Shown in pieces: positions 1-16,486 of a DNA stretch of 33,124 nucleotides. Within the stretch, counting starts at the first letter, position 1, and every line of letters begins with the position of its first letter. Location of the stretch: positions 1-33,124 of the IMG/VR virus record IMGVR_UViG_3300025110_000063, one strand, 5' to 3'. The DNA is from a virus. Both the position numbers and the translations under genes were made by a program. The notes under the pieces were generated by a model. It was not told where the DNA came from. It worked only from the letters and a program-made list of their open reading frames with translations, and made no database searches.

Positions 1-86
1 AAATCAAATATTTAGGATGATAAAATACTATGATTATAATTATAAACCTAATTATATTATAAATTAATTAAAATAAAATAAATGTT

Positions 87-115
87 TTGGAAATTAAAAT
101 ATTTATTTATAAAAT
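87..115 (+). promoter_or_regulatory. Putative early promoter, copy A
   Basis: TTGGAA at 87-92 and TAAAAT at 110-115 are separated by 17 bases and lie 25 bases before the regulator ATG at 141. The region is very AT-rich, so -10-like hexamers are common by chance. It occupies the same place as the better promoter of copy B at 31098-31126, but the -35 boxes differ. Confidence 0.4.
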
Positions 116-140
116 TGAAAAGAATTATAAAAGGAATTAT

Positions 141-362
141 ATGCAAAACAATATTAAACAAGTAATAAAAGAAAAAGGCATAAAACAGACTTATATCTGT
201 GAGAAACTTGGTATAAATGAGAGTGTACTATCTCTTATTATAAATAATAAACGTAAACCAAGCCAGGATAGGCTTCGTGCCTTAGCTAAAATTTTGAATG
301 TAAGTATAAAAACCTTATATCCAAATGTAGTATGTAAAAAAATAAACTATTATTATATATAG
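141..362 (+). CDS. Cro/CI-like XRE-family regulator (copy A)
   Basis: A 73-residue DNA-binding protein that is almost entirely one helix-turn-helix domain of the XRE/Cro type. The HTH is around residues 14-40, with GIKQTYICEKLGINESVLS as first and recognition helices, followed by the IINNKR and PSQDRLRALAKIL segments typical of the family. The start at 141 is preferred over an in-frame ATG at 87 because AAGGAATT precedes it and the homologue at 31153 begins at the same place. It is the first gene of the early operon and probably controls the operon. No divergent partner and no integrase are seen, so a lysogeny role cannot be claimed. It differs from the copy B protein at only about ten positions. 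Confidence 0.88.
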   Translation: MQNNIKQVIKEKGIKQTYICEKLGINESVLSLIINNKRKPSQDRLRALAKILNVSIKTLYPNVVCKKINYYYI

Positions 363-374
363 GAGAGTAAAAGA

Positions 375-941
375 ATGAATATGAAAGACTTAGCAAAGAA
401 GTATAATTTAACTAAAGACGATTACTGGCAGGAGTCGAGGAGTCAAAAATATATTATAACTCACGATGCGTGTCAAAAAATAGGTGATATGGAAGGTATT
501 ATATTTGGACCTCCACAAATACTCAACTCAGAACAAAGCTTCGTTAGAATGGTTATTTCTGCTAAAAAAGGAGAGGTTTTAATGTGGAGTATTGGCGAAG
601 CTGATACTAAAAACTGCAAGAACTTATATTTTGGAGCAATGGCAGAAAAAAGAGGTAAAGATAGAGTTATATTAAAACTTATAAATGCTTATGAGTATGG
701 TATATATTCTGATGTTGAAGCAGACGATTTTAAAAAGCCTAAATACGAACACCGAACAGAAGATCAAGCAAAAGAATTTGAGGAGCTGAAAGGACACCCT
801 GCTTTTGAGGGTCTTAAAAAGTTTTCTAATGATGAGTGGAGAAAATGTAATAGTATAAAAGACTATGAAGATGTTTTGGTAAGAATGAGAGCCGAAAGAG
901 ATAAGTTTGATAACATTACAGGAGAACATAATGATAATTAA
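375..941 (+). CDS. Candidate single-strand annealing/recombination protein of unrecognised family
   Basis: A 188-residue protein preceded by AGGAGAG. Notable segments are THDACQKIGDMEGIIFGPP near residues 29-48, IGEADTKNCKNLYF near 73-86, and AMAEKRGKDRVILKLINAY near 88-106, followed by an acidic EADDF. The AMAEKR...DRVILKL helix recalls the AETRAxGRAL helix of ERF- and Rad52-like annealing proteins, but the family is not identified from sequence alone. The functional argument is positional: in copy B exactly this slot, between the same two neighbours, holds a DUF1071 annealing protein (31396-32043). Its last codons overlap the start of the Zn-ribbon gene at 931. Role inferred, not shown. Confidence 0.5.
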   Translation: MNMKDLAKKYNLTKDDYWQESRSQKYIITHDACQKIGDMEGIIFGPPQILNSEQSFVRMVISAKKGEVLMWSIGEADTKNCKNLYFGAMAEKRGKDRVILKLINAYEYGIYSDVEADDFKKPKYEHRTEDQAKEFEELKGHPAFEGLKKFSNDEWRKCNSIKDYEDVLVRMRAERDKFDNITGEHNDN

Positions 942-1206
942 AGAACATTTGGACCAAAATGGTAGACCAGACCCTGTTGCACAATTAAAATATTGTTCAG
1001 AAAATAATTGTCCAGACTGCACTTATTGTTTATGTGCTTCAGATATGCTACGATTCACAAAACCTACCAAAAAGAAGCCGATTAAAGCAAAGATTATTGA
1101 AACTAAAGAAGCTAATGAATTTGATACTTTAGCTAAAAGGGTGGCTAATGTTGAGGATTTTGACCATCCACTTTATAAAGACGTTGTAAGATTGTTTTTA
1201 AAGTGA
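931..1206 (+). CDS. Small Zn-ribbon-like early protein (copy A)
   Basis: A 91-residue protein with a dense cysteine cluster near residues 23-36 (C-x5-C-x2-C-x2-C-x-C), probably metal-binding, followed by a basic KPTKKKPIKAK stretch and a conserved C-terminal DFDHPLYKD. An in-frame ATG at 907 exists, but 931 is chosen because GGAG lies just upstream at 921 and the copy B homologue starts there. The start overlaps the previous gene's stop by 11 bases, indicating translational coupling. The first two thirds are almost identical in DNA to 32033-32240, while the region after residue 58 has diverged and copy B has an insertion. Family and function unknown. Confidence 0.8.
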   Translation: MIIKEHLDQNGRPDPVAQLKYCSENNCPDCTYCLCASDMLRFTKPTKKKPIKAKIIETKEANEFDTLAKRVANVEDFDHPLYKDVVRLFLK

Positions 1207-1343
1207 GAAAAGCCGATTTTAATAAAATGAGAATAATTCTCTCTAAAGATAATAATGATGATTATATGTCAATGTCTGATGAAGATGTGTTATACGAGTT
1301 TGTTAAGCAGTTTGGAAATAAAATACCAAAAAGGGAGGTATAA
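1203..1343 (+). CDS. Small hypothetical protein, GTG start (copy A)
   Basis: A 46-residue ORF beginning with GTG that overlaps the previous stop as GTGA. The homologue at 32317-32466 uses ATG in the same ATGA overlap, which supports the GTG start. The shared core is RIILSKDNNDDYMS followed by LYEF(V/I)KQFGNK. Conservation of frame between diverged copies shows it is a real gene. It is acidic and soluble, with no recognisable domain. Confidence 0.7.
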   Translation: MRKADFNKMRIILSKDNNDDYMSMSDEDVLYEFVKQFGNKIPKREV

Positions 1344-1492
1344 TGGAAGCGATACAGATTAGATTTGAGTGTGAGCAATTTAAACAAAAAATGTTAGAAT
1401 TAAATCCTAATGTTATGATTGATTTTAGCGTATACGATATAAACGAACACCTAAGAGATATGGAGGGCAACAATGGAAACCAATCCAAATAG
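1343..1492 (+). CDS. Small hypothetical early protein (copy A)
   Basis: A 49-residue ORF starting in a TAATG overlap with the preceding gene, after AGGGAGG. It is homologous to 32468-32608: both have an N-terminal IR-E-C motif, a central MI-F-V-D segment and a shared DMEGNN near the end, while the middle is diverged. The GGAGGGCAAC coding for MEGN doubles as the ribosome binding site of the next gene at 1473, which explains why this end is conserved. Function unknown. Confidence 0.65.
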   Translation: MEAIQIRFECEQFKQKMLELNPNVMIDFSVYDINEHLRDMEGNNGNQSK

Positions 1493-1646
1493 TCTTGACG
1501 GAATAATAAACACTTTAGATTATTATGACCTCTGGTATAAGTGGTTTATAAAATGTTCAAATGTAAAAGAACAAGTAAAATTCAATAAAATGAATAAACA
1601 AGAACAATACAAATACTTAAAGGAGAAAGTAAATGAAAATAAGTAG
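1473..1646 (+). CDS. Small hypothetical early protein (copy A)
   Basis: A 57-residue ORF starting inside the previous gene, after GGAGGG, and ending 14 bases inside the next gene. It is rich in Tyr, Trp and Lys (DYYDLWYKWF, then EQYKYLKEKVNENK). The C-terminal KYLKEKVN matches QYKKEKVN in the copy B gene at 32601-32780, but the N-terminal parts are only weakly alike. The shared end corresponds to the ribosome binding site of the next gene. Function unknown. Confidence 0.6.
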   Translation: METNPNSLDGIINTLDYYDLWYKWFIKCSNVKEQVKFNKMNKQEQYKYLKEKVNENK

Positions 1647-1920
1647 AATGACTAAAGGAGAATGGTCTAAAATAAGAGCATTTTTTGATTTAGAAACAGA
1701 AGATGGTTTTACACTTAAAGGTTTTAAAATAGTTGAAGGTAGTAGTGGTTTATTTGTCGGCTTTCCTAATCAGAAAAACAAAGATGGCGAATACAATGAT
1801 ACTATCTTTGCAAGTAAAGAGCTAAAACAAAAAGTGAATCAATTAGCACTTGAACACTATAATCAAGGCGAATCAACAAACCAAAGTGGATCATCACAAT
1901 CTGACGATATACCATTTTAA
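1633..1920 (+). CDS. SpoVG-like nucleic-acid-binding protein with an SSB-type DDIPF tail
   Basis: A 95-residue protein. Residues 1-72 resemble the SpoVG family, a small DNA/RNA-binding fold of Firmicutes: DGFTLKGFKIVEG, then GLFVGFPNQKNKDGEYND matching the family's GLFIAMPSRK-x-GE-x-D signature, and a late helix KELKQKVNQLALEHY. A Gly/Ser/Gln-rich linker follows and the protein ends in DDIPF, the tip by which bacterial SSB recruits repair and replication partners. Linker plus acidic tip is SSB architecture, so it is probably a phage single-strand-binding protein built on a SpoVG core. In copy B the same slot holds an unrelated protein with the same tail. Start after AAGGAGAAAGTAA. Confidence 0.7.
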   Translation: MKISRMTKGEWSKIRAFFDLETEDGFTLKGFKIVEGSSGLFVGFPNQKNKDGEYNDTIFASKELKQKVNQLALEHYNQGESTNQSGSSQSDDIPF

Positions 1921-1936
1921 ATAAGGGAGAAAAAGA

Positions 1937-2203
1937 ATGAGAACTACATCTATAATGGCTTATGATGAGCTTAAAATAAGTGGTAAGCAGCCAAAGCAAA
2001 AAGACATTATTTATTCAGTACTTAGAAAAAATGTGTCGCCAATGACATTGCAAGAGATATGTAATAAAACTGGTATGGCTATAAATTCAGTATCAGGTAG
2101 AGTTAATGACCTAAAGAAAGAAAATAGAGTTGTTGAATCTAAAAAAAGAAAGTGTTCTGTAACACGAAAATTAGTCACACCAGTTACGAGTTTAACTTTC
2201 TAA
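1937..2203 (+). CDS. Winged-helix DNA-binding protein (copy A)
   Basis: An 88-residue protein. Residues 23-66 (QKDIIYSVLRKN, MTLQEICNKTGMAINSVSGRVNDL and KKENRVVESKK) have the layout of a winged helix: three helices with recognition helix MAINSVSGRVNDL, then a short wing. The basic C-terminus RKLVTPVT is unusual. AGGGAGAAAAAGA precedes the start. Its first 38 codons are almost identical in DNA to 33011-33124. It could be an early regulator or a partner of the replication-initiator-like protein that follows directly. Function inferred from fold only. Confidence 0.7.
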   Translation: MRTTSIMAYDELKISGKQPKQKDIIYSVLRKNVSPMTLQEICNKTGMAINSVSGRVNDLKKENRVVESKKRKCSVTRKLVTPVTSLTF

Positions 2204-2698
2204 ATGTTGGAGATACTAATAAGAGAGGGTAAGGATAAGCAACCTAAATGGGTTGATATAGACACTTTGAGGAGTATGACGAGGAAGCCGAAAAAGTCAT
2301 CAACCCAACCTTCTCTTAAAAGTACAAAAGATTTTGAATTTTGGTGGGATTTATATGATAAAAAGACGACTAAGAAACAGACTTTAGCTTATTGGATCAA
2401 AAACATCACTAAAGAAGATATATATAAAATTATGCAACATACTAAGCATTATATTAAAGATAGAGAGAAAGTATATCGCAAAGACCCAGTAAGATATTTG
2501 AGAGATAAAGTATATGAAGATGAGATTATAAAAACAGAGAAAAAAATTGATTTAGATGAATATTATCCATTTGATAAAAGTGGCTCTGCAAGGCTTGGTA
2601 GATGTGCAAGTTGTAATGGGATAGTATTTGGTAATAAATTCACTATAGCAAAAGACGATAGTGATTGTTGTAAAGCAAAAATAAACAAATATAGGTAA
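2204..2698 (+). CDS. Replication initiator/helicase-loader-like protein
   Basis: A 164-residue protein starting immediately after the previous stop. Residues 44-106 (FEFWWDLYDKKTTKKQTLAYW, the ITKEDIYKIM helix, then KDPVRYLRDKVYEDE) match the module found at the end of many phage O-like replication proteins: FWxLYPKK, a helical stretch, and a P-x-x-YL-x-x-xxWED-like finish. A C-terminal CxxC (134-137) with a C155-C156 pair suggests a small zinc knuckle. No helicase, primase or polymerase was recognised in the window, so this is the best candidate for recruiting the host replisome. Assignment by motif, moderate confidence. Confidence 0.55.
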   Translation: MLEILIREGKDKQPKWVDIDTLRSMTRKPKKSSTQPSLKSTKDFEFWWDLYDKKTTKKQTLAYWIKNITKEDIYKIMQHTKHYIKDREKVYRKDPVRYLRDKVYEDEIIKTEKKIDLDEYYPFDKSGSARLGRCASCNGIVFGNKFTIAKDDSDCCKAKINKYR

Positions 2699-2700
2699 CT

Positions 2701-2838
2701 ATGGAAGATGAAATTTTAGTTAAAGTATTAAATAAAGATTTGCAAATAGCTATTCAAGCTTTAAAAGCTATTATAAACGAATCTAATGATTCTATAGCAG
2801 TTAAAATAGCTGAAGATACTTTAGAAATTATAAGTTAA
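2701..2838 (+). CDS. Small hypothetical helical protein
   Basis: A 45-residue ORF starting two bases after the previous stop. It is composed of aliphatic and acidic residues (LQIAIQALKAIINE, then AVKIAEDTLEII), consistent with two helices. No membrane segment and no domain recognised. It is followed at once by the structured leader at 2845-2898. Confidence 0.5.
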   Translation: MEDEILVKVLNKDLQIAIQALKAIINESNDSIAVKIAEDTLEIIS

Positions 2839-2844
2839 ACTCGC

Positions 2845-2898
2845 AGGGCAGGTAGATCATTCGCACAATGTCATATCCCTCCTTAGGATACTTGCCCT
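2845..2898 (+). promoter_or_regulatory. Predicted three-way-junction RNA leader 1
   Basis: AGGGCAGGTA (2845-2854) pairs with TACTTGCCCT (2889-2898). Inside it, CATT-CGCAC-AATG forms a small hairpin (2858-2870). A second hairpin, TATCC (2874-2878) with GGATA (2886-2890), carries the loop CTCCTTA, which resembles the anti-Shine-Dalgarno end of 16S rRNA. The two innermost pairs of the outer stem compete with this hairpin. The outer stem ends 8 bases before the GGAGA site of the gene at 2916. Pairings were found by eye. Confidence 0.5.
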
Positions 2899-2915
2899 CA
2901 AAATTGGAGAATAAA

Positions 2916-3134
2916 ATGAGAAAATGTAGCCATTGTAAGACAACTAAAGATATAAGTAGCTTTAACAGAGGTGGCGATAATAGAAGTTATATATGTGCAG
3001 AATGTCAAAAACTATATAGCCGTAATAAACAAGCCAAACAAAAGCAGAAAATTTTAGAGTGGACTAACAATGGTAAGTGCTGGTGGGTATATCAAAGTAT
3101 AATGGGAGATTTAACATTTTGGAAAAAGAGGTAA
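2916..3134 (+). CDS. Small zinc-finger protein
   Basis: A 72-residue protein with two CxxC knuckles, CSHC at residues 4-7 and CAEC near 29-32, separated by KTTKDISSFNRGG and followed by a Lys/Gln-rich helix (KLYSRNKQAKQKQKILEW). This is the layout of small phage and HNH-associated zinc-binding proteins, but no His-Asn-His catalytic residues are seen. The ATG at 2916 is preferred over one at 2868, because TTGGAGA lies at 2904-2910 and the longer version would start inside the RNA leader. Function unknown; nucleic-acid binding is plausible. Confidence 0.65.
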   Translation: MRKCSHCKTTKDISSFNRGGDNRSYICAECQKLYSRNKQAKQKQKILEWTNNGKCWWVYQSIMGDLTFWKKR

Positions 3135-3137
3135 ATA

Positions 3138-3440
3138 ATGCCGAACAAAAGTAAAGCTAAAGGTAATAGATTTGAAAGAGAAATTGTAGAAGCAGTAGAG
3201 CTTCACGAAATTAAATGTGTTCGTGCTTGGGGATCAAACGGAAAAGCATTTGGACACCACGAAGAAGTAGATATACTTATAGACAACAAGATTAAAGTTC
3301 AAGCTAAAGTTCGTAAGGCTTTGCCGAAATGGATAAGACCCTCTGAAAATGTAGATGTACAGATTATAAAAGAGGACAGAGGAAAGATGTATGTAGTACA
3401 AGAATTGAATGACTGGTTAATAAACATAAAGGAAAAATAA
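3138..3440 (+). CDS. Holliday-junction-resolvase-like PD-(D/E)XK nuclease
   Basis: A 100-residue protein resembling small phage and archaeal Hjc-like resolvases. GNRFEREIVEAVE (residues 9-21) supplies the N-terminal acidic residue, AWGSNG (30-35) the usual glycine turn, EEVDILI (42-48) the catalytic Asp, and VQAKVR (54-59) the second part of the core. In that last motif the usual ExK is QAK: the lysine is kept and the Glu position is Gln, as in some family members. It would resolve recombination intermediates or branched DNA before packaging, which fits its place among recombination genes. The function would depend on D45 and K57. Confidence 0.7.
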   Translation: MPNKSKAKGNRFEREIVEAVELHEIKCVRAWGSNGKAFGHHEEVDILIDNKIKVQAKVRKALPKWIRPSENVDVQIIKEDRGKMYVVQELNDWLINIKEK

Positions 3441-3700
3441 TGGGTATTTTTATAGACACACAAACAGAAGATAAGCAAGTATATGAAATTTTGTTAAGCG
3501 ATAATAAATGGTACAGAGCAAAACTTAACACATATATGATAATAGATGCTTTTGAAATAGGTTTTTATAATATCGATACCGAAAAATATTATCTACAGAC
3601 CGATATGGGTAAAGGTGTAAAAATTCATTTAGAAGATGGTTCTGAATTAATTTGTAAGCTTTCAGAAGTAAAAGCATTTAAGATAAAGTATAATAAGTAA
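3440..3700 (+). CDS. Hypothetical early protein
   Basis: An 86-residue protein starting in a TAATG overlap with the resolvase-like gene. It is predicted to be mostly beta (QVYEILLSDNKWYRAKL, FEIGFYNID, VKIHLEDGSELICKLSEV) and acidic. No motif or family recognised. Coupling to the nuclease gene suggests joint expression. Confidence 0.6.
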   Translation: MGIFIDTQTEDKQVYEILLSDNKWYRAKLNTYMIIDAFEIGFYNIDTEKYYLQTDMGKGVKIHLEDGSELICKLSEVKAFKIKYNK

Positions 3701-3701
3701 A

Positions 3702-3842
3702 ATGGGTAGAGTAACAGAATTTATTGATTTTATTAATAGGAAGCCTAAGCCTACACCATTAGAAATGAAAACAGAATATACTTCATTAACATTGACTTAT
3801 AAAATACAAGATATTAGAAAACAAAATTTAAAAAAGAGATAG
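3702..3842 (+). CDS. Small hypothetical basic protein
   Basis: A 46-residue ORF starting two bases after the previous stop. It begins MGRVTEFIDFINRKPKP and ends in a basic RKQNLKKR. Its stop codon lies inside the 5' strand of RNA leader 2, so translation of its end would disrupt that stem. No family recognised. Confidence 0.5.
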   Translation: MGRVTEFIDFINRKPKPTPLEMKTEYTSLTLTYKIQDIRKQNLKKR

Positions 3843-3905
3843 GTGGTGGGTTTTTATTCATTCTCCCAACCTTTAGCATTTCCCCTTTCTATGCACTATC
3901 TCTTT
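3833..3905 (+). promoter_or_regulatory. Predicted three-way-junction RNA leader 2
   Basis: AAAGAGATAG (3833-3842) pairs perfectly with CTATCTCTTT (3896-3905), a 10-bp closing stem. Within it, GGTGGG pairs with CCCAACC (one bulged A) around a U-rich loop, and GCAT (3876-3879) pairs with ATGC (3891-3894) around a pyrimidine-rich loop. The GGAGAA site of the gene at 3920 begins six bases after the closing stem, and an ATTCTCC segment at 3859-3866 could alternatively pair with it. The topology matches leader 1. Found by eye. Confidence 0.5.
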
Positions 3906-3919
3906 AAATTGGAGAAAAT

Positions 3920-4363
3920 ATGATTTATTTAGTTAATGCTGAAAATACAGATTTATATAAAATTGGTTACACATCTGTGGGTGCTGAAAACAGATTAAAA
4001 TCATTACAAACAGGAAGTCCACATAAACTTAATATTATCAAACAAACTGATGGTAGCATTTCAAAAGAAAAGTATATACAAAATTGGTTTTATTACAAGA
4101 AAAAACGAGGCGAGTGGTTTGAGTTTAATGATGATGATGTTAAGAATGTTATTGATATGATGTTAGATAAAAAAGAGCATTTAACAGAAAGTAAAATTAA
4201 AACAAAGTTATTATCATTTAGAACAAGTATCAACAATGATAAATATTTAAGAAAATTAATGGAAAGTGATGAACGAAGCATGTCGTACATTATATCTAAA
4301 ATGATTGAATATTTTAATAAACAAAATATCACAGATGTTAGAGATATAACGGAGAAAATATGA
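3920..4363 (+). CDS. MUG113/T5orf172-type GIY-YIG-like nuclease with helical C-terminal extension
   Basis: A 147-residue protein. Residues 1-82 fit the MUG113/T5orf172 branch of the GIY-YIG superfamily: IYLVNAENTDLYKIGYT replaces the GIY...YIG strands, ENRLKSLQTGSPHKL is the conserved arginine helix, and KEKYIQNWFYYKKKRGEWFEF holds the late Glu and the G-x-WF signature. Residues 95-147 (LRKLMESDERSMSYIISKMIEYF) look like a ribbon-helix-helix or other small DNA-binding segment not usual in this family. It probably cuts DNA during recombination, or acts as a homing or host-DNA nuclease. RBS TTGGAGAA follows RNA leader 2. Confidence 0.7.
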   Translation: MIYLVNAENTDLYKIGYTSVGAENRLKSLQTGSPHKLNIIKQTDGSISKEKYIQNWFYYKKKRGEWFEFNDDDVKNVIDMMLDKKEHLTESKIKTKLLSFRTSINNDKYLRKLMESDERSMSYIISKMIEYFNKQNITDVRDITEKI

Positions 4364-4509
4364 TTAAAAAAGAATTACACTTTGTATGGATAACTAAAGA
4401 CGGCAAGAGATTCTTAGATAGAGATGAAGCCGAGAAACATAATGACCTACTTATTGACCCAAAAGATATAGTGGATCAATGGTTAGATAGACTTAAAGGA
4501 GAAAAATGA
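4360..4509 (+). CDS. Small hypothetical protein
   Basis: A 49-residue ORF with a GGAGAA site, overlapping the nuclease stop as ATGA and the next gene as ATGA. It is charged (FVWITKDGKRFLDRDEAEKHN) with a C-terminal helix ending LDRLKGEK. No family recognised. Confidence 0.6.
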   Translation: MIKKELHFVWITKDGKRFLDRDEAEKHNDLLIDPKDIVDQWLDRLKGEK

Positions 4510-4625
4510 ATATAGTATTTGCATTATTATTAACCTCTGCTATGCTTGTAACTTTATTAGCAGTTATTTTAGAATCAATAGAAGTATATTATGATACGAA
4601 AGAGAGAATGACAAATGAAGATTAA
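4506..4625 (+). CDS. Small single-pass membrane protein
   Basis: A 39-residue ORF with one hydrophobic segment (residues 2-22, including ALLLTSAMLVTLLAVIL), followed by an acidic/basic tail. The start overlaps the previous stop (ATGA) and follows AAAGGAGAAAA. Together with the next, overlapping membrane ORF it forms a pair of tiny membrane proteins in the early operon. Lysis, exclusion or envelope roles are possible but unproven. Confidence 0.5.
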   Translation: MNIVFALLLTSAMLVTLLAVILESIEVYYDTKERMTNED

Positions 4626-4728
4626 TTGGTATAGTCTTATAAGTTATTTAACAATTATATTTTTAGGTTGTGCATTTTGGTATGCAGTAATAAGCCGATT
4701 TATAGAAGCATTTTCTAATCAAGGGTAA
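4615..4728 (+). CDS. Small single-pass membrane protein
   Basis: A 37-residue ORF overlapping the previous one by 11 bases in another frame. It has one hydrophobic segment (ISYLTIIFLGCAFWYAVI). The FLGC sequence is a poor lipobox, so lipoprotein processing is not supported. Function unknown. Confidence 0.45.
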   Translation: MKINWYSLISYLTIIFLGCAFWYAVISRFIEAFSNQG

Positions 4729-4730
4729 GG

Positions 4731-4770
4731 TATAGGTCAAGGCTTTTTCTTTTATAAATAGCCACCTATA
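4731..4770 (+). promoter_or_regulatory. Predicted stem-loop leader 3
   Basis: TATAGGT (4731-4737) pairs with ACCTATA (4764-4770). Directly inside, GGCT (4741-4744) pairs with AGCC (4760-4763), giving 11 bp with a CAA bulge and a U-rich 15-base loop. It fills the gap before the HNH gene at 4801. It is not followed by a uridine run at the base, so a classical terminator is unlikely. It is the third structured element in this operon. Confidence 0.5.
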
Positions 4771-4800
4771 AGCATAGTTTTTAACAAAAAAGGGTATTCT

Positions 4801-5064
4801 ATGAATACAAAGGATTATATTAAGTATATTAAGTCTAAACATTGTTTAGTGTGTGGGAGGTCGCCAGTAGACCCAGACCATTTAGAACATTTGGGTATGG
4901 GTGGAGCAAACAAGGGTGGTCTTAAAGATTACTCTTGTGTGCCTCTTTGCCGAAAACATCATACTGAAAGACACAATATAGGCATAAAAGACTTTGAATG
5001 GACTTATGGTATTAGTCTATGGAAAGAAGCATTTTATTTATTGAGAGGATATTTCGCAGAATGA
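4801..5064 (+). CDS. HNH-type nuclease-like protein (YbcO/DUF968-like)
   Basis: An 87-residue protein. CLVCG (residues 15-19) and CVPLC (46-50) provide a four-cysteine zinc site. DPDHLEHLG (24-32) supplies the first catalytic His, and RKHHTERHN (51-59) the following histidines. This is the compact HNH layout of phage proteins such as YbcO and DUF968 members, which replace or assist recombination nucleases. It sits beside a NinB-like gene, as in lambdoid nin regions. RBS is AAAGGG, weaker than its neighbours, and RNA leader 3 precedes it. Good structural match, moderate functional certainty. Confidence 0.75.
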   Translation: MNTKDYIKYIKSKHCLVCGRSPVDPDHLEHLGMGGANKGGLKDYSCVPLCRKHHTERHNIGIKDFEWTYGISLWKEAFYLLRGYFAE

Positions 5065-5414
5065 AATTCGCAGGTAAAATAAAACAAGGTAAACTTACCT
5101 TAGATGATAATCTTGGATTTAGGGATTATTTAAGGCTAATTGAGGGCGATGTTCACTTAGAAATAAAACCTGCCGAAAAGGTGCGTTCTCCACAACAAAA
5201 CGCCTATTATAGGGTTATTATAAGGTTATTAGCTAAAGATTTAGGTTATACTGAAGCCGAAATGCACAATGTTATAAAAGAAAAGTATGAGATCCAATCC
5301 ACTAAACAATTATCTGTTCCAGAGTTTACTGAACTTATCGAAGAAATAAAAAGATGGGCAGTAATAGAAATGGGTATTGTGCTGCCGAACGCTAAGCAAC
5401 CTCATCAATCGTAA
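5061..5414 (+). CDS. NinB-like recombination-associated protein
   Basis: A 117-residue protein when started at 5061, where ATGA overlaps the HNH stop; an ATG at 5019 in frame would read through much of the HNH gene and is not favoured. RSPQQNAYYRVIIRLLAKDLGYTEAEMHNVIK-type helices and a conserved tail (EIKRWAVIEMGIVLPNA) match a common phage family near NinB, whose lambda member is a DNA-binding helper of recombination. Its last 23 bases overlap the convergent end of the late operon (5392-5414), so both stops lie within each other's gene. It marks the end of the early operon. Confidence 0.6.
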   Translation: MKFAGKIKQGKLTLDDNLGFRDYLRLIEGDVHLEIKPAEKVRSPQQNAYYRVIIRLLAKDLGYTEAEMHNVIKEKYEIQSTKQLSVPEFTELIEEIKRWAVIEMGIVLPNAKQPHQS

Positions 5415-6492
5415 TACTTAACTTATAAGTATTAAAAGCTACTTGTTGTACACTTAAAGAGTTTCCTCTAAAATTACATATAGCATATCTATCAGGTGCA
5501 TTAGAATCTTTATCGTCTGTGAATATAAACGGCAGAGTACCACCTAATGTACAATTCCATACAAAGTTAAAACTATTATCTGATAGCATAGGGTTAGGAT
5601 CGTTATCATTAGGAGTAGATTCGCCATCACTTATAAGTGTGTTAGACACTTCATTTTCCATCCACATATCACTTTCTGCTATATAAGAGAAAGACAATTT
5701 CCAACTTCTTAATCCTTTTCTACCTAAACCACTTTTAACTTTTTGATTAAAATCATTTGTATTTACAACTGATTCTGGATAATCTAATTCAAATGGTGGG
5801 TATTTATAAGTTCCATTAGGACTATTCATAGTCCATTCTGTTGCTCCATCATAATAAATGTTAGCTAATGTTTTACCACCTATTGTTTTTTGTTTTTTAA
5901 TACCATCAAATCGTCTTGACATTGTAAGGTTAAGGTCAGGCGAATTAGGACAATCAAAATACTTACCTACTACTAAAGAGCCTAATTGATGTTTACCTGC
6001 TTCAAGAGCTTGTTCTTCAGGCGTTCCGTAATATATGCTAAATTGCCTCCAATAAGCATCTTGACTTTCAAAGGTATATAAAGTTGTTCCATTATATTGA
6101 GGACTTATTAATTGTCCTGAAAAATTTGAGTTTAAAACACTACCTGTTTCAGATGGTACAAATCTTGGTGCTTCAGTTTGGGCATCTGTTTCCCAAGGAT
6201 AATTACTTTTTCCGATAACTCTAAATCCTTCAGGGTGATATAAATTATGATTTAAAAGAGCTACAAAATTTACAGGAAAAGATGTTTTTGCAATATTATT
6301 TGTAGAATCGCCAATTTTAAAAGGTGCTACTTGATTTTCTGATTCTGTAGATTCGTATAGATAAGGATTAGCACAATTCATATATAAAAGCTCTGCACCA
6401 CCATCACTATCATCCCAACCTAATTGTCCTGTGGCGTGTAAAAATGTAGGCATATCTACATAAAATCTTGGCGTTTTAACTTGCTTTCCCAT
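5392..6492 (-). CDS. Putative tail-tip/fibre structural protein, last late gene
   Basis: A 366-residue protein, beta-rich and acidic, with many aromatic residues and no membrane segment or enzymatic motif. It is the promoter-distal gene of the late operon, after the large tail-tip protein and the 176-residue protein, a position usually occupied by distal tail or baseplate components. The start shares one base with the stop of the preceding gene (TAATG on the minus strand) after an AGGAGG site. Family not recognised. The end overlaps the early operon's last gene on the other strand. Confidence 0.55.
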   Translation of the reverse strand: MGKQVKTPRFYVDMPTFLHATGQLGWDDSDGGAELLYMNCANPYLYESTESENQVAPFKIGDSTNNIAKTSFPVNFVALLNHNLYHPEGFRVIGKSNYPWETDAQTEAPRFVPSETGSVLNSNFSGQLISPQYNGTTLYTFESQDAYWRQFSIYYGTPEEQALEAGKHQLGSLVVGKYFDCPNSPDLNLTMSRRFDGIKKQKTIGGKTLANIYYDGATEWTMNSPNGTYKYPPFELDYPESVVNTNDFNQKVKSGLGRKGLRSWKLSFSYIAESDMWMENEVSNTLISDGESTPNDNDPNPMLSDNSFNFVWNCTLGGTLPFIFTDDKDSNAPDRYAICNFRGNSLSVQQVAFNTYKLSITIDEVA

Positions 6493-7022
6493 TAATATCC
6501 TCCTGAACTACTTCGTCTTTTAATTTTTGTTTTAGTTTTCTTTGTCGGCTCTGCTTTAGGTAGATCATCATCTATAATATAAGATGTTTTTTTAACCTTT
6601 CCATTAGGAGTAATATCTTTAAAATTATCCCAAGTATCTGCTTCTACTTCCATAGACCAATTTTGTCTAGTCCATTGTGATTCATCTTTTTTAACAATAC
6701 ATTTAATTTGTTTACCTTCTACGTTTGCTACTATAGCTTTATTTAATTTTATTGTGCCTTCATATTTAAATAGTAATTGATTTTTTATAGGAACATTTTG
6801 TAAAGCAAATATTATAATCTTACTATTATTTCCTCTTAAATACCAACCTTCTGGAAGTTCTGGCGTTATATTAGCTTTACCTCTAAAATGTATTTCTATT
6901 CCCATTATATCAGTATCAGACGATATTAAACACTCACCTTTTTCACAACTAATAGTAGCCGTACCACTTGCTATTTTACTACTAAAATCATAAACTTCTG
7001 ATATTTTCTTTGCTATTGCCAT
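6492..7022 (-). CDS. Putative tail-associated structural protein
   Basis: A 176-residue protein with a beta-rich body (residues 15-130) and a strongly basic, low-complexity end (KKTKTKIKRRSSSGGY). A segment near residues 110-135 (DESQWTRQNWSMEVEADTWDNF) is Trp-rich. It lies one base after the 1176-residue tail protein's stop, so it is translationally coupled. No family recognised; the tail-tip role rests on position. Confidence 0.5.
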   Translation of the reverse strand: MAIAKKISEVYDFSSKIASGTATISCEKGECLISSDTDIMGIEIHFRGKANITPELPEGWYLRGNNSKIIIFALQNVPIKNQLLFKYEGTIKLNKAIVANVEGKQIKCIVKKDESQWTRQNWSMEVEADTWDNFKDITPNGKVKKTSYIIDDDLPKAEPTKKTKTKIKRRSSSGGY

Positions 7023-7023
7023 A

Positions 7024-10000
7024 TTACTCCAATATTATTGCAACAAGTTGCACCATATCTAATACATTTATTATACCATCATTATTTATATCTGCTTCAT
7101 CATTAGGTTCTTCAAAACCTAAAGCCATATTAACTAAAAGTACTACATCTAAAACATTAACCACTCCATCACCTGTTACGTCACCTATTAATTCTTCAGT
7201 TTCAGATTCATTTATTCCTAATTGGTCAAAAGATTCTTCTAATGTAAATTGTGTATTTTTAACTTCTAATATAAATTCAATAACTGCACCTTGTGGATAT
7301 AATTCAAATTTCTTTTCAATAGTTATATATCCATCATTATCTTGCATACTTAATGCGTGATTAACTAAATCCATACCTGATAAATCGCCCACTTCATATT
7401 CGCCTGAATTGTACTCTATTCCATTATATTCAAATGAAGAAGATATTGCTCTAACCCAAATATTATATTCCCAAGATTCATCCATATTCGTGCTTACAAA
7501 ACAAACAACTTGGTTAGTATTTAGATTTCTGTTAGAACCCATTTGTATTCTTAAATAGTTATCTTCTTCAAATTCAAATTCGTCAGTTCCAATAGAATCT
7601 TCGTTATAGTTAGGGTCGTCTTGTGGGTCAGGTAATTGATTGTTTTCAGTTACATCTTCACCATTTCCATTAACTGTATCACCTGCATCATTATCATCAT
7701 CTAAGGGAAATCCATATTCTCCACGATGTACTTGCACTCCTTCTATAGTTACTTTAGATAATGATTTAGATACTTTTGTAATAAAAAATACAGGATAAAT
7801 AAGTTGCCCATTTCTGTGCTCAACTTTAGAATAATCATATCCAAAAGCTAATTTGCCACCTAATAAATCATTAAATCTAATATAATCACCTGCTTCTAAG
7901 TGCATATAATGTGCAGGTAAATCTATTTTAGTTATTAAATGTTGATTACAATGCCATAATAAAAGTTTTTTTTGTAATCTTACAGCTGTAAATTCAGCTC
8001 TTATATAATCTGTTTCTATTTCTAATTTAGCATCTTCTGAATCTAAGCCGTAATAACCAATATCATAAGCATCATTACCACTATACCCTAATTCAGTAGT
8101 TGTGTACTCATCAAGAGTGGTATATGTAGTATCAGCTATTGTATAACCTGTTTGCTTGTCATATTCGCCAGAACCATAATTTTTTTTGTATTTTACATTA
8201 ACAGAATTATAAACATCATCTAATTTTGTAAGTTCAAAAGAATATTTTATTATATCTTCTGTATCTATAGAAATAACATCGTCATAACTACTTATAATCT
8301 GTTTAATTCCTATAAATTTAAATTGCCCAGCACTATCAAAAGATGGAATTAAAAGTGTAGCTTTAAACATATCTTCCATTACTTCCTTAGTTTCTTTTTG
8401 TTCATTTAAAGTAAAAGAATACTGCCAAGAATTTATTCCTGTATCAAGATCAATTTGTACATCTGCCTGACTTTCATCTATATTGCCATTATATAATAAT
8501 TCATCTTGCAAAATATCTTTCATTATTCCTTCAGCTTTTGATATTATTTCAAGGTCATTAGATAATGAAGTTCTACCTGCTATAGCACCATAAAAATCTT
8601 TATTAGCATAATCTAAAATTAACGCATCCTGTAAAACATAAAAGTCTTTTAAATTTGCTATACAAGAATTAAATATTAGGAAATTATTATACCAGCAATG
8701 TTTTATTTTTGGCGAACCCCATTGTATACTATTATAAGCATTTGTAGTATCAAAACCTTCAATAATATTCTCATAATCAGCAGTATTTAATATATCGTGT
8801 GCTCCATTTTGTTGTTCGTTTTGATTTTGGTACCTTACAACAAAATGCCATTGACCATATCCATCTTCGTCAAAGTTATCAATTTCAAAGTTATGCTCTT
8901 TATTAGGAACCCAGCAAGGTGTAACCCAATCTTCTGGATTGGTACGATTTTTTTCCCAATCTCCTCCTTGTTCAGGGTCTACATCACTACCTTCTACATC
9001 TAAATATATACCAGTTCTTTCTACTAATTGTTTTTCTACCCAAAAAGCAGTAGGGTTTGTATCTGTTCCTAGAGGATAATCTCTACCCTTAGCAGGAAAA
9101 TATTCAATATTATAAAATATTTTTGTTACACAAGGTAAACTACCTACATTTTGTTTAAAAAATAATCTTGCATACGCACCACCACCTTCACCTGATTCAT
9201 TTATACAAGTAATATTTAATCCAGAAAATTGATTCCAATTTTGTATCCAAGAAACATCAAATTCTGCTGCTTTATAACTTTCATCATAAAATTCATACCA
9301 GTTATCATCATAATGTGAAACAATTTCTTCTTCACCTTCTAAATTTTCATTTATAGATGTAGGTTCCCAATAATTTAAAACATCCCCTTCTGTTGGACCA
9401 TCATTCCAAAATTCATTATAAAGATTTTGAGATTCAATATTATCTGAATAGCTTTGAATTATTTGTCTCATAGGACCGTAAGTAGCTTGATTTTGGTAAC
9501 CAACAAATTTATTTGTATTAGGTAAATCACCATCAATATTAGGTAAATTTAAAGCAAAAAATGAAACTTTATCTATTGGTCTATATATTCTTGCTGGAAT
9601 ACCTTGCTTACCTACACCTTCATCTGCTTCTTCATCCCATTTTTCGTGTATAAAACTATCAAAATTAAATTTTATATGTGCAGGTTCGCTTTCATTGTTT
9701 ATAAGTGAATATAAACTTACATCCTCATTATAATTATTATAGATTCTTGAACCAAATTGACGTACACCTTCTTGATATATTGGTATAAATCCCCCCTCAT
9801 ATATTGATAAATATGAAAGATTTCTTAAATAATTAAATCTGCGTAATGGGTGATAGCTACTGTTTTGGATAGCCTCATTACCATAATCTATTTGTGAAGC
9901 ACCATTCCAATAATCTTTTATATTTCTATTTGGTTTATCTATTTCAAGTGTTTGTTCAAGTGTTGTTATTAATGGTGATTTATCTACTAAACCATAAACC

Positions 10001-10554
10001 ATAGGGTAAGGTTTTCCAATGTCAGATTCTTTATATTTTTCTTTATCTTGAATTGTAGTAGATGGTATTTGAGTTTTAAGTTTTTGTTCAGTTAGATCTT
10101 CTAAAGTAAGGCTTAAAGTTTCTGCCGACTGTGAATAACGTCTAATAGTACCAGTATAGACTAAAAGACAATCATCTAAACTATCTAAACCATTAGCAGC
10201 GTAATACACTTGTACTACTGCGTTTAGTAGACTAGGAATATCGTCTGAGAATATCTTGCCATTATAGGGAGCATTTGATATAGATAGGGATACACTCGAA
10301 ATAGTGTATTTATTGTTTATAATGTCGGCTTTTGAGCTTATAGAAGGACTATTAAGAAGTAAAGGTATATAACCTTCATAAGTATTATCTAAGTTCTTAA
10401 TAGATGTTTCTTTTATAGATAAGTTTATTGCTTCTACATCATCAGGTATAGTGTCGTCAATTTGATAACCTTTATAAATCCTAACCAAAGGATATAAAGA
10501 TGTTCTTACACCATTACCTAATGCTTGTTTAAACTTTACTGGTAATTCTAACAT
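7024..10554 (-). CDS. Large tail-tip/host-interaction protein with C-terminal dockerin-like module
   Basis: An 1176-residue protein, the largest in the window. It directly follows the tape measure gene (one-base overlap), the usual place for tail-tip/central fibre (gpJ or Tal-like) proteins. The N-terminal part (KFKQALGNGVRTSLYPLVRI, then segments on vectors of tail assembly around residues 70-170 such as GKPYPMVYGLVDKSP) and a long Asp/Asn/Tyr-rich middle fit a baseplate hub plus receptor-binding region. Residues about 1122-1176 carry two EF-hand-like repeats, DVTGDGVVNVLD and DINNDGIINVLD, 30 residues apart: a type I dockerin signature. The acidic linker near residues 950-990 separates body and tip. 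Confidence 0.72.
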   Translation of the reverse strand: MLELPVKFKQALGNGVRTSLYPLVRIYKGYQIDDTIPDDVEAINLSIKETSIKNLDNTYEGYIPLLLNSPSISSKADIINNKYTISSVSLSISNAPYNGKIFSDDIPSLLNAVVQVYYAANGLDSLDDCLLVYTGTIRRYSQSAETLSLTLEDLTEQKLKTQIPSTTIQDKEKYKESDIGKPYPMVYGLVDKSPLITTLEQTLEIDKPNRNIKDYWNGASQIDYGNEAIQNSSYHPLRRFNYLRNLSYLSIYEGGFIPIYQEGVRQFGSRIYNNYNEDVSLYSLINNESEPAHIKFNFDSFIHEKWDEEADEGVGKQGIPARIYRPIDKVSFFALNLPNIDGDLPNTNKFVGYQNQATYGPMRQIIQSYSDNIESQNLYNEFWNDGPTEGDVLNYWEPTSINENLEGEEEIVSHYDDNWYEFYDESYKAAEFDVSWIQNWNQFSGLNITCINESGEGGGAYARLFFKQNVGSLPCVTKIFYNIEYFPAKGRDYPLGTDTNPTAFWVEKQLVERTGIYLDVEGSDVDPEQGGDWEKNRTNPEDWVTPCWVPNKEHNFEIDNFDEDGYGQWHFVVRYQNQNEQQNGAHDILNTADYENIIEGFDTTNAYNSIQWGSPKIKHCWYNNFLIFNSCIANLKDFYVLQDALILDYANKDFYGAIAGRTSLSNDLEIISKAEGIMKDILQDELLYNGNIDESQADVQIDLDTGINSWQYSFTLNEQKETKEVMEDMFKATLLIPSFDSAGQFKFIGIKQIISSYDDVISIDTEDIIKYSFELTKLDDVYNSVNVKYKKNYGSGEYDKQTGYTIADTTYTTLDEYTTTELGYSGNDAYDIGYYGLDSEDAKLEIETDYIRAEFTAVRLQKKLLLWHCNQHLITKIDLPAHYMHLEAGDYIRFNDLLGGKLAFGYDYSKVEHRNGQLIYPVFFITKVSKSLSKVTIEGVQVHRGEYGFPLDDDNDAGDTVNGNGEDVTENNQLPDPQDDPNYNEDSIGTDEFEFEEDNYLRIQMGSNRNLNTNQVVCFVSTNMDESWEYNIWVRAISSSFEYNGIEYNSGEYEVGDLSGMDLVNHALSMQDNDGYITIEKKFELYPQGAVIEFILEVKNTQFTLEESFDQLGINESETEELIGDVTGDGVVNVLDVVLLVNMALGFEEPNDEADINNDGIINVLDMVQLVAIILE
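7027..7192 (-). other. Dockerin type I-like calcium-binding module (part of the tail protein)
   Basis: Two loops of the form D-x-(T/N)-(G/N)-D-G-x-(V/I)-N-x-L-D, each followed by a hydrophobic helix (VVLLVNMALG and MVQLVAIILE). This matches the duplicated Ca-binding loop-helix of dockerins. In dockerins the module binds a cohesin; here it would be displayed at the end of a phage tail protein. Confidence 0.75.
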
Positions 10555-12455
10555 TAACCGATCCCAAAATCACTACCCCTACGGACAGCTTCTTTAATTG
10601 ATTCTGCAAGTTCACCTTCTACAAAATCTTGTGTTAAAACATTACCTGATACGCTTACATTGATGTTTCCACCACCACCTGATTGATTCATTTGGTTAAG
10701 TGTTTCTAAGCCGATAGATTCTACTGCATTTCTACTCATTACAAATTCGCCTCTTTCAGCTTCTATAATAGTACCACCTTGTGAGTGTCTGTTTCCACCT
10801 ACATAACCACCTTGTTCAAACTTGCCGTAGACACCACCTGCACCTGCTCCAGCAACGCTACTCATTTTACCTATAGAACTTTCTATAGTTGCTACGTTAG
10901 CTAAACCTGCTGCTATAACTGCTGCCATTTTAAATGGTTGCCCTACAAATTTAGTTGCTTCAGCATAAGTATCAATAACTGCTGCTATTTGTTGTAGTCT
11001 TGCTCCTTGTAAAGCATTTTTACCATCTATTTGTATTACAGCAGCACTTGCTTTTGCTACAGCAGAATACATATTTAATTTATCTTGTTGTATTTCATTA
11101 ACTGTATCTGTAACATCACCTAAATGTTTTTCAGCAGGTCCTAAAGCTAATAATGCGTTCATATAAAATGATGAAGATTTAGTTAGCCTATCAAATTTTG
11201 CTGCTGCTGTTGTAAGTTTTGGTAAGGTATCATCTAAAACAAAATTAAAATGTTCAAAATTAGGATTGGCTAATACAAGAGCATTTGCAAAACGGTCTAC
11301 TGATTCTTTTGATTCATCTGACCCAGATGTAAACCCTTGAACTGCTGTAGCAATACTACCTATTGTAACAGCAGCAACATTTCCAATTCCTAAAAAGTTA
11401 AGTAAATTTTTACCTAAACCTAATAAAGTTTGACCCCAAGTTTTAATTGCTTTAGCTCCATTAGTTATTGCAGTAATATTTTTTCCTATAACTTTAGTAA
11501 GTGCTGAAATACCCACTCTTGCAGCTACAGTTGCTGTTTTTATACCAGCAAAAGCTATACCAATATTAACAATTAATTTTACTGCTGCTTTCATTCTATC
11601 ACTTGTAATAGCATTTACAAAATTAGTTGAAGCATCAATTAATGGAGTTAATTCTTTAGTTAAATCACCTATTCTTGTGTTAAGGTTTGCAAAAGCTGTA
11701 CCTAATTGGTCCATTGAATCTTGTTGAGATAAAACTTCTTTTCCTGTTGCAGCTAATGCTGATTCACCTTGTCTTAATGTTTCATTAAAAAACGCTTGTT
11801 TTTTTTGTGCATCAGTAAGAGCAGAAGCTACTAAATTATTTTCTTCTGCATATCTTTTATATGCTTGTTCAGCAGATACAATAATACCTAAGTTATCAAG
11901 CATCAGTCTTGATTGACGACCAATACCAGTTATTAAAGATTCAACAGAACGTCTTGTATCAACACCCATAGCTCTACCAAGCCTTTGTGCCATATCAAAT
12001 AATCTTGACATTTCATCAGCATTATTACTTACACCAAGTATCATAGCATTGTTTGCTTGTTGAAATAAATCAAAATCTGAAACAGTATTATTAGTTGCTT
12101 CTCTTAATTTTTCTATTGCAATAGCAGCACTACCACTACCTTGACTTAAATTTCTAAATGCTCTTTCCATTGATTCAAGTTTCGCTGCTGCTTGAGCCAT
12201 TTTGGTAAGTTGAGTAATACCAAGACCCATAGCGAAATTAAATAGTAACATTTTTGAACGTACTGTAGAAAATGCCAAACCTAAATTGCTCATAGATTTA
12301 GCATTACGTTTTGTTGTGGTATCAAATGCTCCTAAACTTTTAGTTGTTTTATCAGTTGTTCCTTTTAAACGATCTTTTGCTTTTTGTAAGGCTTTTATAG
12401 CTGTTACTAATTCTCTATCGCCTTGTGGCTTAAACTGTACGATAATATCAGACAT
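10554..12455 (-). CDS. Tail tape measure protein
   Basis: A 633-residue protein, short for a tape measure, which would mean a short siphoviral tail if length scales as usual. It begins with a basic, helical region (ELVTAIKALQKAKDRLKG). Hydrophobic segments lie at about residues 68-85 (LLFNFAMGLGITQL) and 290-312 (AVKLIVNIGIAFAGI), with further Ala/Val-rich stretches at 330-375. The middle (SLITGIGRQSRLMLDNLGIIV, then AEENNLVASALTDAQKKQAFF) is a recurring tape measure motif region. The C-terminus is Gly-rich (AGAGAGGVYGKFEQGGYVGG), also typical. Its start overlaps the upstream chaperone ORF by 8 bases. Confidence 0.85.
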   Translation of the reverse strand: MSDIIVQFKPQGDRELVTAIKALQKAKDRLKGTTDKTTKSLGAFDTTTKRNAKSMSNLGLAFSTVRSKMLLFNFAMGLGITQLTKMAQAAAKLESMERAFRNLSQGSGSAAIAIEKLREATNNTVSDFDLFQQANNAMILGVSNNADEMSRLFDMAQRLGRAMGVDTRRSVESLITGIGRQSRLMLDNLGIIVSAEQAYKRYAEENNLVASALTDAQKKQAFFNETLRQGESALAATGKEVLSQQDSMDQLGTAFANLNTRIGDLTKELTPLIDASTNFVNAITSDRMKAAVKLIVNIGIAFAGIKTATVAARVGISALTKVIGKNITAITNGAKAIKTWGQTLLGLGKNLLNFLGIGNVAAVTIGSIATAVQGFTSGSDESKESVDRFANALVLANPNFEHFNFVLDDTLPKLTTAAAKFDRLTKSSSFYMNALLALGPAEKHLGDVTDTVNEIQQDKLNMYSAVAKASAAVIQIDGKNALQGARLQQIAAVIDTYAEATKFVGQPFKMAAVIAAGLANVATIESSIGKMSSVAGAGAGGVYGKFEQGGYVGGNRHSQGGTIIEAERGEFVMSRNAVESIGLETLNQMNQSGGGGNINVSVSGNVLTQDFVEGELAESIKEAVRRGSDFGIG

Positions 12456-12867
12456 CTTTTTTCGCTTTCTCTTGTATCATTTGACTTTTCTTAGCCATCG
12501 CATTTTTAATTATAAAAAAATATTGTACCCATCTTGCAGGTTGTTCACCATAACTACCTGAGTATGCTGGTGTATTTGTTTCTGTACAATATAAATACTT
12601 ATTAAGAAGTTTTATATACTTCTCATCTCTAACGTGATTTATACACGCAAAGAAAGGTAATTGTGCAGTAATACTTTTAGCCACATCAAACTCCTTTCCT
12701 TTTTCTTCGTTAAATTCTTTAGTTTCTTGGGTAATTAAATTAATAACTGCCCAAACATCATCTTGTGATCTAAACTCTCGTGTTTCGTATCCGTTTTCCG
12801 TCTTTACAGGTAACTGTGCTTCGTATGGAAATTCACAATAAGGACAGCCTCCACAGCCGTCAGACAA
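12448..12867 (-). CDS. Tail assembly chaperone, T-like second ORF (probably made by frameshift)
   Basis: This frame codes 139 residues from a TTG at 12867, but no ribosome binding site precedes it. The frame stays open upstream to 12900, inside the previous ORF. Expression by -1 frameshifting from that ORF is therefore more likely, giving a fusion of about 237 residues, like lambda gpGT. It has CxxC pairs at the start (CGGCPYC), Trp and aromatic residues, and a basic helical end. The role would be to bind the tape measure during tail assembly. Position directly before the tape measure supports this. Confidence 0.68.
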   Translation of the reverse strand: MSDGCGGCPYCEFPYEAQLPVKTENGYETREFRSQDDVWAVINLITQETKEFNEEKGKEFDVAKSITAQLPFFACINHVRDEKYIKLLNKYLYCTETNTPAYSGSYGEQPARWVQYFFIIKNAMAKKSQMIQEKAKKDV

Positions 12868-12903
12868 TATAGTCAGTTCTACTTGGAGGCTTTCTCTTCC
12901 CCC
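12846..12903 (-). promoter_or_regulatory. Putative -1 programmed frameshift signal in the tail chaperone pair
   Basis: Read on the minus strand, the G-run GGGGGAA (12897-12903) is followed after 5 bases by AGCCTCCA (12884-12891), which pairs perfectly with TGGAGGCT (12846-12853) across a 30-base loop. The -1 frame from this point is open through the second ORF. The heptamer is not the classical X-XXY-YYZ form: the Gly codon can re-pair, but the following Glu codon cannot fully. Confidence 0.6.
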
Positions 12904-13160
12904 ACTAAGTAATAAGACTGCATTTTAGTAAATATTTCAGTCCTATCCTCTAATGTGAGTGTTTTTAGAAACTTATCTGATGTATCGCCTTCAAGTCCAA
13001 TACGAATCCATTTAGTCATAGTAGAGTGCATCATTTTAATTTGACCCACATTTCCATCACTATCCATTTCATATTGTACAGAATCAAGCATTTCATCTCT
13101 TTCATCTATAGATACATCTTTTAACTTAATCTTACTTCCAGATTCAAGTTTAAATTCCAT
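12879..13160 (-). CDS. Tail assembly chaperone, G-like first ORF
   Basis: A 93-residue acidic, helical protein with the look of small siphoviral tail chaperones: a short beta start (FKLESGSKIKLKDV), then helices (SIDERDEMLDSV, TLEDRTEIFTKMQSYYL). It lies between the tail tube and tape measure genes, and its end contains the putative frameshift site. Residues after Gly87 would be replaced by the second frame in the shifted product. Start follows AAGGAATAA. Confidence 0.65.
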   Translation of the reverse strand: MEFKLESGSKIKLKDVSIDERDEMLDSVQYEMDSDGNVGQIKMMHSTMTKWIRIGLEGDTSDKFLKTLTLEDRTEIFTKMQSYYLVGEEKASK

Positions 13161-13170
13161 TGTTTATTCC

Positions 13171-13344
13171 TTACTTTGTTTTTTTAGCCGTTTTTTTAGT
13201 TTTATCAAACTTAACATTAGGTGTATCGTGAGGTCTGCCTTTAATCTTGTCAGACACATCTGTCCAATGAGATGGAACTAAATCCACATCTTTGTCTGCA
13301 ACTCTCCTAAGTTTATAATGATCTCCAACTTTATAATATTTCAT
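13171..13344 (-). CDS. Small basic hypothetical protein between tail tube and chaperones
   Basis: A 57-residue ORF with AAGGAG before the ATG. It begins MKYYKVGDHYKLRRV and ends in a lysine-rich tail (KTKKTAKKTK). Phages often carry a short protein of this kind here, but no family is recognised. Confidence 0.6.
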   Translation of the reverse strand: MKYYKVGDHYKLRRVADKDVDLVPSHWTDVSDKIKGRPHDTPNVKFDKTKKTAKKTK

Positions 13345-13355
13345 TTAATCTCCTT

Positions 13356-14507: not shown

Positions 14508-14562
14508 ATCTTTATCCTTCCGACATAAGATTTATGCCATTAATTTAGTTATTATTTGTTAA

Positions 14563-14997
14563 TTATCCAACATTTCCTACGTGATTGCATTGCCATTCCA
14601 TTTCCACCGTATAAATACCATCTCCTTCTTCTGTATTCAATTCCGTAGATTGAACTCTACAATCAAATGCTTTAGAGTTATCAGATAAAGTCATTATCAT
14701 ATTATCGTGAACTAACGCCTCAATTCTTGAGGTGTATCTTAGTATATGGTCCATTGTTTTAGTATTGACCATTTTTTCGTCAAAATAATATATTAATTTT
14801 ACGTTATATTGCCTTTCTTCAGAGTTAGTTGTAAAACTAATTAATGAAGAAGATTCAGGCAAAATTCTTAAATATTGTGAGCCGTGCATTTGTTCATAAC
14901 CAACACATACAGGCAAAGCACCCTTAAATTCTGTTTCGATAACACTTTCGAGTTTATCTAATATATTCTTAAATGTATTTTCAGGAGTTATAGCCAT
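14563..14997 (-). CDS. Putative tail terminator/neck protein
   Basis: A 144-residue protein of mixed alpha/beta make-up: an N-terminal helix (NTFKNILDKLESVIETEF), central strands, and a C-terminal strand pair (GDGIYTVEMEWQCNHVG) typical of minor tail and tail-completion proteins of about this length. It sits between the 324-residue adaptor-like gene and the tail tube gene, and shares one base with the former's stop. Assignment by size, pattern and order. Confidence 0.5.
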   Translation of the reverse strand: MAITPENTFKNILDKLESVIETEFKGALPVCVGYEQMHGSQYLRILPESSSLISFTTNSEERQYNVKLIYYFDEKMVNTKTMDHILRYTSRIEALVHDNMIMTLSDNSKAFDCRVQSTELNTEEGDGIYTVEMEWQCNHVGNVG

Positions 14998-15971: not shown

Positions 15972-15979
15972 CTATTCTC

Positions 15980-16422: not shown

Positions 16423-16423
16423 A

Positions 16424-16486
16424 TTACTTCTTTCTTTTTTTTATTTTAGTTTTTTTCTTTTTCTTTTTGCGTGTATGATACGGCAT
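16424..16486 (-). CDS. Tiny polybasic peptide
   Basis: A 20-residue ORF with a strong AAGGAG site seven bases before ATG, reading MPYHTRKKKKKKTKIKKRKK. Thirteen of 20 residues are Lys or Arg. It precedes two more basic genes in a row. The ribosome binding site makes it likely to be translated, but homopolymeric A runs also make lysine-rich ORFs by chance. Confidence 0.45.
   Translation of the reverse strand: MPYHTRKKKKKKTKIKKRKK

Follow-up and report, generated by a model that had tools for sequence, protein, structure and literature searches.

The doubled early region of an uncultivated tailed phage contig is most likely one circuit of a circular map that re-entered on another strain's recombination genes

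The window, by which we mean the whole 33,124-nt stretch of DNA that was analyzed, carries an early region at each end, with the same gene order in both copies and unrelated genes at two corresponding positions. We conclude, with a probability of roughly 0.88, that the window is one circuit of a circular phage map of about 31 kb that re-entered its start on another strain's allele. The doubling is most likely an assembly effect rather than a real duplication, and the second copy would come from a different molecule. Judging from the sequences, the real content of the doubled region appears to be allelic mosaicism of annealing and ssDNA-binding genes at the same two positions.

To compare the two ends of the window, we used head-to-tail BLAST. 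Copy 1 (1-2050, allele A, cut by the contig start) and copy 2 (31013-33124, allele B, cut by the contig end), both on the + strand, were collinear, with shared blocks that were 80-96% alike and two genes that were unrelated. The matching blocks paired 14-388 with 31026-31409 (80%, E = 4e-98), 930-1327 with 32032-32441 (87%, E = 1e-142), and 1902-2050 with 32976-33124 (95%, E = 2e-65), while none of 60 random 2.1-kb pairs from the same window gave a match at E ≤ 1e-5. Identity was at background in 408-922, where the gene for a 188-aa protein faces a Sak gene, and in 1668-1907, where a SpoVG gene faces an SSB gene. These results bear out the preliminary description of this DNA, which had reported the same gene order at 14-2050 and 31026-33124, with whole unrelated genes between similar blocks.

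All features of the two copies lie on the + strand. A Cro/C1-type HTH regulator is encoded at 141-362 (PF01381, E = 4e-13) and again at 31153-31377, with a protein 90% identical to that of copy 1. The first variable position, slot 1, holds a 188-aa protein without a family in allele A (375-941), characterized by AlphaFold2, Foldseek, and a comparison of its C-terminal helical tail, and a Sak single-strand annealing protein in allele B (31396-32043). A BLAST block then covers a gene for a small conserved cysteine-rich protein (931-1206 and 32033-32320), which contains the best conserved stretch, with 96% DNA identity within 930-1111. Small ORFs follow: 1203-1343 has an 81% identical counterpart at 32317-32466, 1343-1492 has diverged from 32468-32608 (41-47% protein identity), and no similarity was found between 1473-1646 and 32601-32780. 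The second variable position, slot 2, encodes a SpoVG-family protein with the SSB-type C-terminus SDDIPF in allele A (1633-1920) and an ssDNA-binding protein ending in NDDIPF in allele B (32770-32994). The longest exact block common to the copies (1906-1983, equal to 32980-33057) starts in the codons of this DDIPF tail. At the left junction, a winged-helix gene is complete (1937-2203; phrog_1123, E = 8e-16), while copy 2 retains its 5' part (33011-33124) up to the contig end, with an identical protein so far. The first single-copy gene past copy 1 (2204-2698) encodes a replication-initiation-like protein (phrog_270, E = 2e-6) that is 98% identical in the related contig L101.

Reading frames were intact in both copies. 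Codon changes between the copies were synonymous in 16 cases and not in 7 for the HTH gene, and synonymous in 5 and not in 2 for the cysteine-rich gene, while 6 base changes over 37 codons of the winged-helix gene left the protein identical. Because changes in the shared genes were mostly synonymous, both copies appear to come from living phages. Sequencing error as the cause of the differences was ruled out on the same grounds. Homology between the copies extended from about base 2, at the contig edge, to the final base of the contig, so both contig ends lie inside a homologous stretch. The longest exact match between copies was 78 nt long, and at the final bases of the contig the exact match covered 3 nt; thus, no exact overlap closes the contig, and a search of the window record for an exact direct terminal repeat returned none, leaving the mosaic overlap only.

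We then compared the window with its relatives. A terminase scan of IMG/VR yielded 144 related stretches, of which 80 were kept, and the 188-aa protein, Sak, and the replication and HTH proteins served as queries in additional scans. In the resulting comparison set (20 whole records of relatives and about 25 informative contigs), no relative had the early region more than once. Marker maps placed one early region in each relative, and the winged-helix gene gave one match each in 13 of 13 records that have the gene. Genomes with one cassette alone, for which a search had been proposed, were thus found, with the early region held once and one or the other cassette within it. The path in these relatives ran from the 30.8-kb side of the window through one cassette into the 2.05-kb side. 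Contig L009 crossed both junctions, matching 30795-31400, the Sak allele, and 32767-33084, then 1890-2927 and 3132-3429; L003, L041, and L058 crossed both junctions with the 188-aa cassette. The preliminary description had favored, as the simplest reading, a contig that completed one circuit of a circular or terminally redundant genome and re-entered it on the allele of another strain, and these single-cassette relatives crossing the junctions support that explanation.

The relatives' contigs shared one circular gene order and opened at many different places in it, and in G004, the tape-measure gene was divided between the two contig ends. An exact end repeat of 124 bp was present in G009, end overlaps of 76 and 98 bp at 100% identity in G003 and G007, and imperfect end overlaps in G006 (143 bp, 98.6%) and G011 (136 bp, 97.8%). 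In G011 (L145/L146, a record of 34903 bases), the overlap pairs 273-408 with the last 136 bases, and 1-109 matches, at 90%, a stretch some 0.65 kb short of the end. All of these overlaps were short (76-143 bp), and none was a 2-kb mosaic like that of the window. As read from these sequences, the genome map of the lineage is circular, whether the DNA itself is a circle or is circularly permuted or terminally redundant. Since relatives have a single copy and a circular gene order, the 31.0-31.1-kb spacing of the copies in the window is best read as one circuit.

Contigs of the 188-aa type and the Sak type were both recovered from metagenomes 3300030376 (006969 and 004534), 3300030450 (002652 and 001611), 3300030098 (004140 and 003049), and 3300030329 (003428, a distant 188-aa relative, and 004249). 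The proposal that alternate cassettes coexist in one population thus gains independent support from four metagenomes, and because both types come from the same metagenome, a mixed sample is normal and a return on another strain's allele is nothing unusual. The record would then represent one circuit of an uncultivated tailed phage genome, about 31.0-31.1 kb long, in which the assembler reached its starting region again through reads from a strain that co-occurred and had a different recombination module. Since the returning reads would come from a differing strain, the circle would be left unclosed and both alleles kept, one per contig end. Circular viral genomes can be over-extended, and one assembler avoids this by stopping at near-identical terminal repeats (PMC11443906). 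The overlap in the window differs in being unusually long (2.1 kb) and mosaic. Tests for exact repeats therefore miss it.

In phage T4, the two ends of a single DNA molecule carry different alleles in terminal-redundancy heterozygotes, and a heterozygote of this kind would show the same arrangement here, which makes it a candidate. We consider a real molecule with both alleles, either such a heterozygote of headful-packaged, circularly permuted DNA or a two-strain concatemer, to be improbable. In the heterozygote version, the ends of one phage DNA would differ after recombination in a co-infected cell, and a virion with such ends would yield a sequence identical to that of the window. A 2.1-kb redundancy would amount to about 7% of the genome, and both the many opening points of the relatives' contigs and the frequent recombination of the lineage in its early region fit this explanation. 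However, it requires the capture of one rare molecule, and the other relatives have short end overlaps only. The packaging mode is also not readable from the terminase (24069-25379), as no terminase among the isolates listed was more than about 33% identical to it. Two related phages or prophages in tandem, on one host chromosome or in an array, are a still more distant prospect: such an array would likewise end inside a homologous stretch, but no integrase was noticed among the window ORFs, no relative had more than one early region, and 84,980 bacterial and archaeal species genomes yielded a single distant terminase match (34%) as a possible prophage relative. Least probable of all is one phage that keeps two early operons, each with its own annealing/SSB pair. 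The intact reading frames of both copies fit this reading, but no relative has two and copy 2 is cut off by the contig end.

The terminase lineage is common in IMG/VR (144 stretches), as a widespread uncultivated phage group, and a DNA search with window positions 1-20000 found no isolates. Elsewhere in the genome, 7024-10554 (- strand) encodes a large structural protein in which two C-terminal dockerin-like repeats (GDVTGDGVVNVLDVVLLV... / ADINNDGIINVLDMVQLV) were recognized by eye, and a T5orf172/MUG113 domain protein (3920-4363) lies amid the early genes. The GP88 family protein at 28976-29755 (PF17338, E = 6e-37) is patchy among relatives, being 95% identical in G003 and about 35% identical in G006 and G009.

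Based on its sequence, the product of 31396-32043 is a Sak single-strand annealing protein, matching PF06378 over residues 6-137 (E = 5e-31; 107.7 bits against a cut-off of 22.3) and phrog_659 (E = 3e-34). Its structural model was of low confidence (pLDDT 69) and served solely to compare the order of structural elements. The 188-aa protein had no Pfam or PHROG match and failed sequence membership in every named single-strand annealing protein (SSAP) family, and was not classed as Sak, Erf, or RecT. Members of its family alignment gave weak matches only, which fell in chance families or in families of unknown function, and its profile returned nothing convincing against the sequences of solved structures. 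The AlphaFold2 model (pLDDT 87.5) consists of a strand, a helix, three strands, and a long helix (a beta-alpha-beta-beta-beta-alpha order), followed by three helices. Foldseek matches in the PDB were weak, with none at E ≤ 0.001; the top match was a dsRBD (E = 0.0097), next came 80alpha Sak (E = 0.014, probability 0.91), and yeast Mgm101 was also matched (E = 0.043, probability 0.99). Named matches in BFVD included SAK3, Bet, Erf, and RecT, at E values of about 0.003-0.007. A relative in Pseudanabaena phage Pam5 (38% identity over 59%) is annotated as a 'recombination protein', and distant relatives occur in Flavobacterium, Tenacibaculum, Rhizobium, Bradyrhizobium, Pseudanabaena, and Pelagibacter phages. 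From its predicted fold, we suggest that the 188-aa protein is probably a divergent annealing protein of the Rad52-superfamily type, and as such, it would anneal DNA. When the profiles of the two slot-1 types were compared, the C-terminal tails matched at 98.7% probability and the cores at 1.2%, which shows that a homologous C-terminal helical tail is common to both types, while the cores are not detectably homologous.

In slot 2, the product of 1633-1920 matched PF04026 (SpoVG) with E = 3e-14 and 53.6 bits against a cut-off of 29.6, and that of 32770-32994 was assigned to the SSB type by its match to phrog_7364 (E = 4e-10) and its acidic tail with a final PF. An SSB-type acidic C-terminal tail was present in 16 of 16 SpoVG-type and 12 of 12 SSB-type proteins listed (28/28). 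Each of the 12 listed SSB-type proteins ended in D-[IL]-P-F, and variants in the slot included DDIPF, DEDLPF, and SDVPF. Two SpoVG relatives read in gut phage records were without the acidic tail. A 'Staphylococcus phage' record with a SpoVG relative looks like a host chromosome region. In the open-licence literature, we found no description of an SSB-tailed SpoVG-family protein occupying the SSB position. Annealing by the Sak4 protein of phage HK620 is stimulated by its cognate SSB through the C-terminal tail NDYPPF (Hutinet et al. 2018, PMC5928155). By analogy with this effect of the last six residues of an SSB, the slot-2 acidic tail, DDIPF-like in the window, is probably a partner docking site. 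Unlike in HK620, the tail here is also carried on a SpoVG-family core, and the interaction itself is one that we infer. The SpoVG protein would replace SSB in these phages.

On the body side of the left junction, the window is closest to contig L101, with 97-99% identity over the genes for SpoVG and the replication protein and over the 3' part of the winged-helix gene, yet L101 carries Sak. This combination suggests a recent slot-1 swap. Among 25 contigs, 12 paired the 188-aa protein with SpoVG, 9 paired Sak with SSB, 3 paired Sak with SpoVG, and 1 paired the 188-aa protein with SSB. Strict linkage of the annealing type with the SSB type was ruled out, as all four combinations occur. The pairing preference gave a Fisher p of 0.001 when uncorrected for relatedness and a p of 0.25 when relatedness was counted, with 3 independent pairs on supported branches. 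With just 3 independent pairs, the preferred pairing is not established and may reflect shared descent or physical linkage. The best tree of the neighboring nuclease gene, a short gene whose tree has many weak branches, gave at least 7 changes in slot 1 and at least 6 in slot 2. The two slots also swap independently of each other.

The swaps would probably arise by annealing-protein-driven recombination in co-infected cells, with short conserved blocks (the HTH gene, the cysteine-rich gene, the tail codons, and the winged-helix gene) as crossover sites. The parts that probably contact partners, namely the annealase C-terminal tail and the SSB-type acidic tail, would be kept while the DNA-binding cores are exchanged. 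A broader model, which we rate at slightly under even odds, is that of a two-slot plug-in recombination module in which unrelated cores sit on kept tails, selection swaps the cores, and SpoVG serves as a phage SSB. Sak or 188-aa cores would share one C-terminal tail and SSB-like or SpoVG cores would carry the acidic tail, so that selection, for example by host defenses sensing annealing or SSB proteins, could act with protein-protein interfaces preserved. Since defense systems targeting phage annealing proteins have been described (PMC8093625, PMC11846896), an arms-race reading of the slot swaps is plausible by analogy.

Rad52-like recombinases drive phage genomic mosaicism (De Paepe et al. 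2014, PMC3945230). The pattern reported here resembles that mosaicism in its unrelated gene blocks amid short conserved blocks and in a recombination that tolerates divergence; it differs in that the exchanged genes are the annealing and ssDNA-binding genes themselves, in an uncultivated lineage. In a survey of Firmicutes, SSAP genes were found in modules with ssb, and SSAP families shared a C-terminal domain, which was attributed to domain shuffling (Steczkiewicz et al. 2021, PMC8093625). The window likewise has an SSAP gene near ssb and replication genes and a C-terminal domain common to both slot-1 types, but unlike in that survey, one of these types, the 188-aa protein, falls in no Pfam or PHROG family, and a SpoVG-family protein can take slot 2. 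Mosaicism of annealing genes was already known; the SpoVG-family protein with an SSB tail had no counterpart in the open-licence papers searched.

Collectively, these comparisons indicate that the doubling most likely has an ordinary origin, and that the retention of tails with exchange of cores is what merits work at the bench. Near-complete genomes left by mixed-strain closure of a circular phage map, as is most likely here, escape tests for exact end repeats. The 188-aa family is a candidate for an unrecognized annealing family, and the SpoVG-family protein with an SSB tail is a possible phage substitute for SSB. The natural swap variants, with cores exchanged and tails kept, make the compatibility rules between annealases and SSBs testable.
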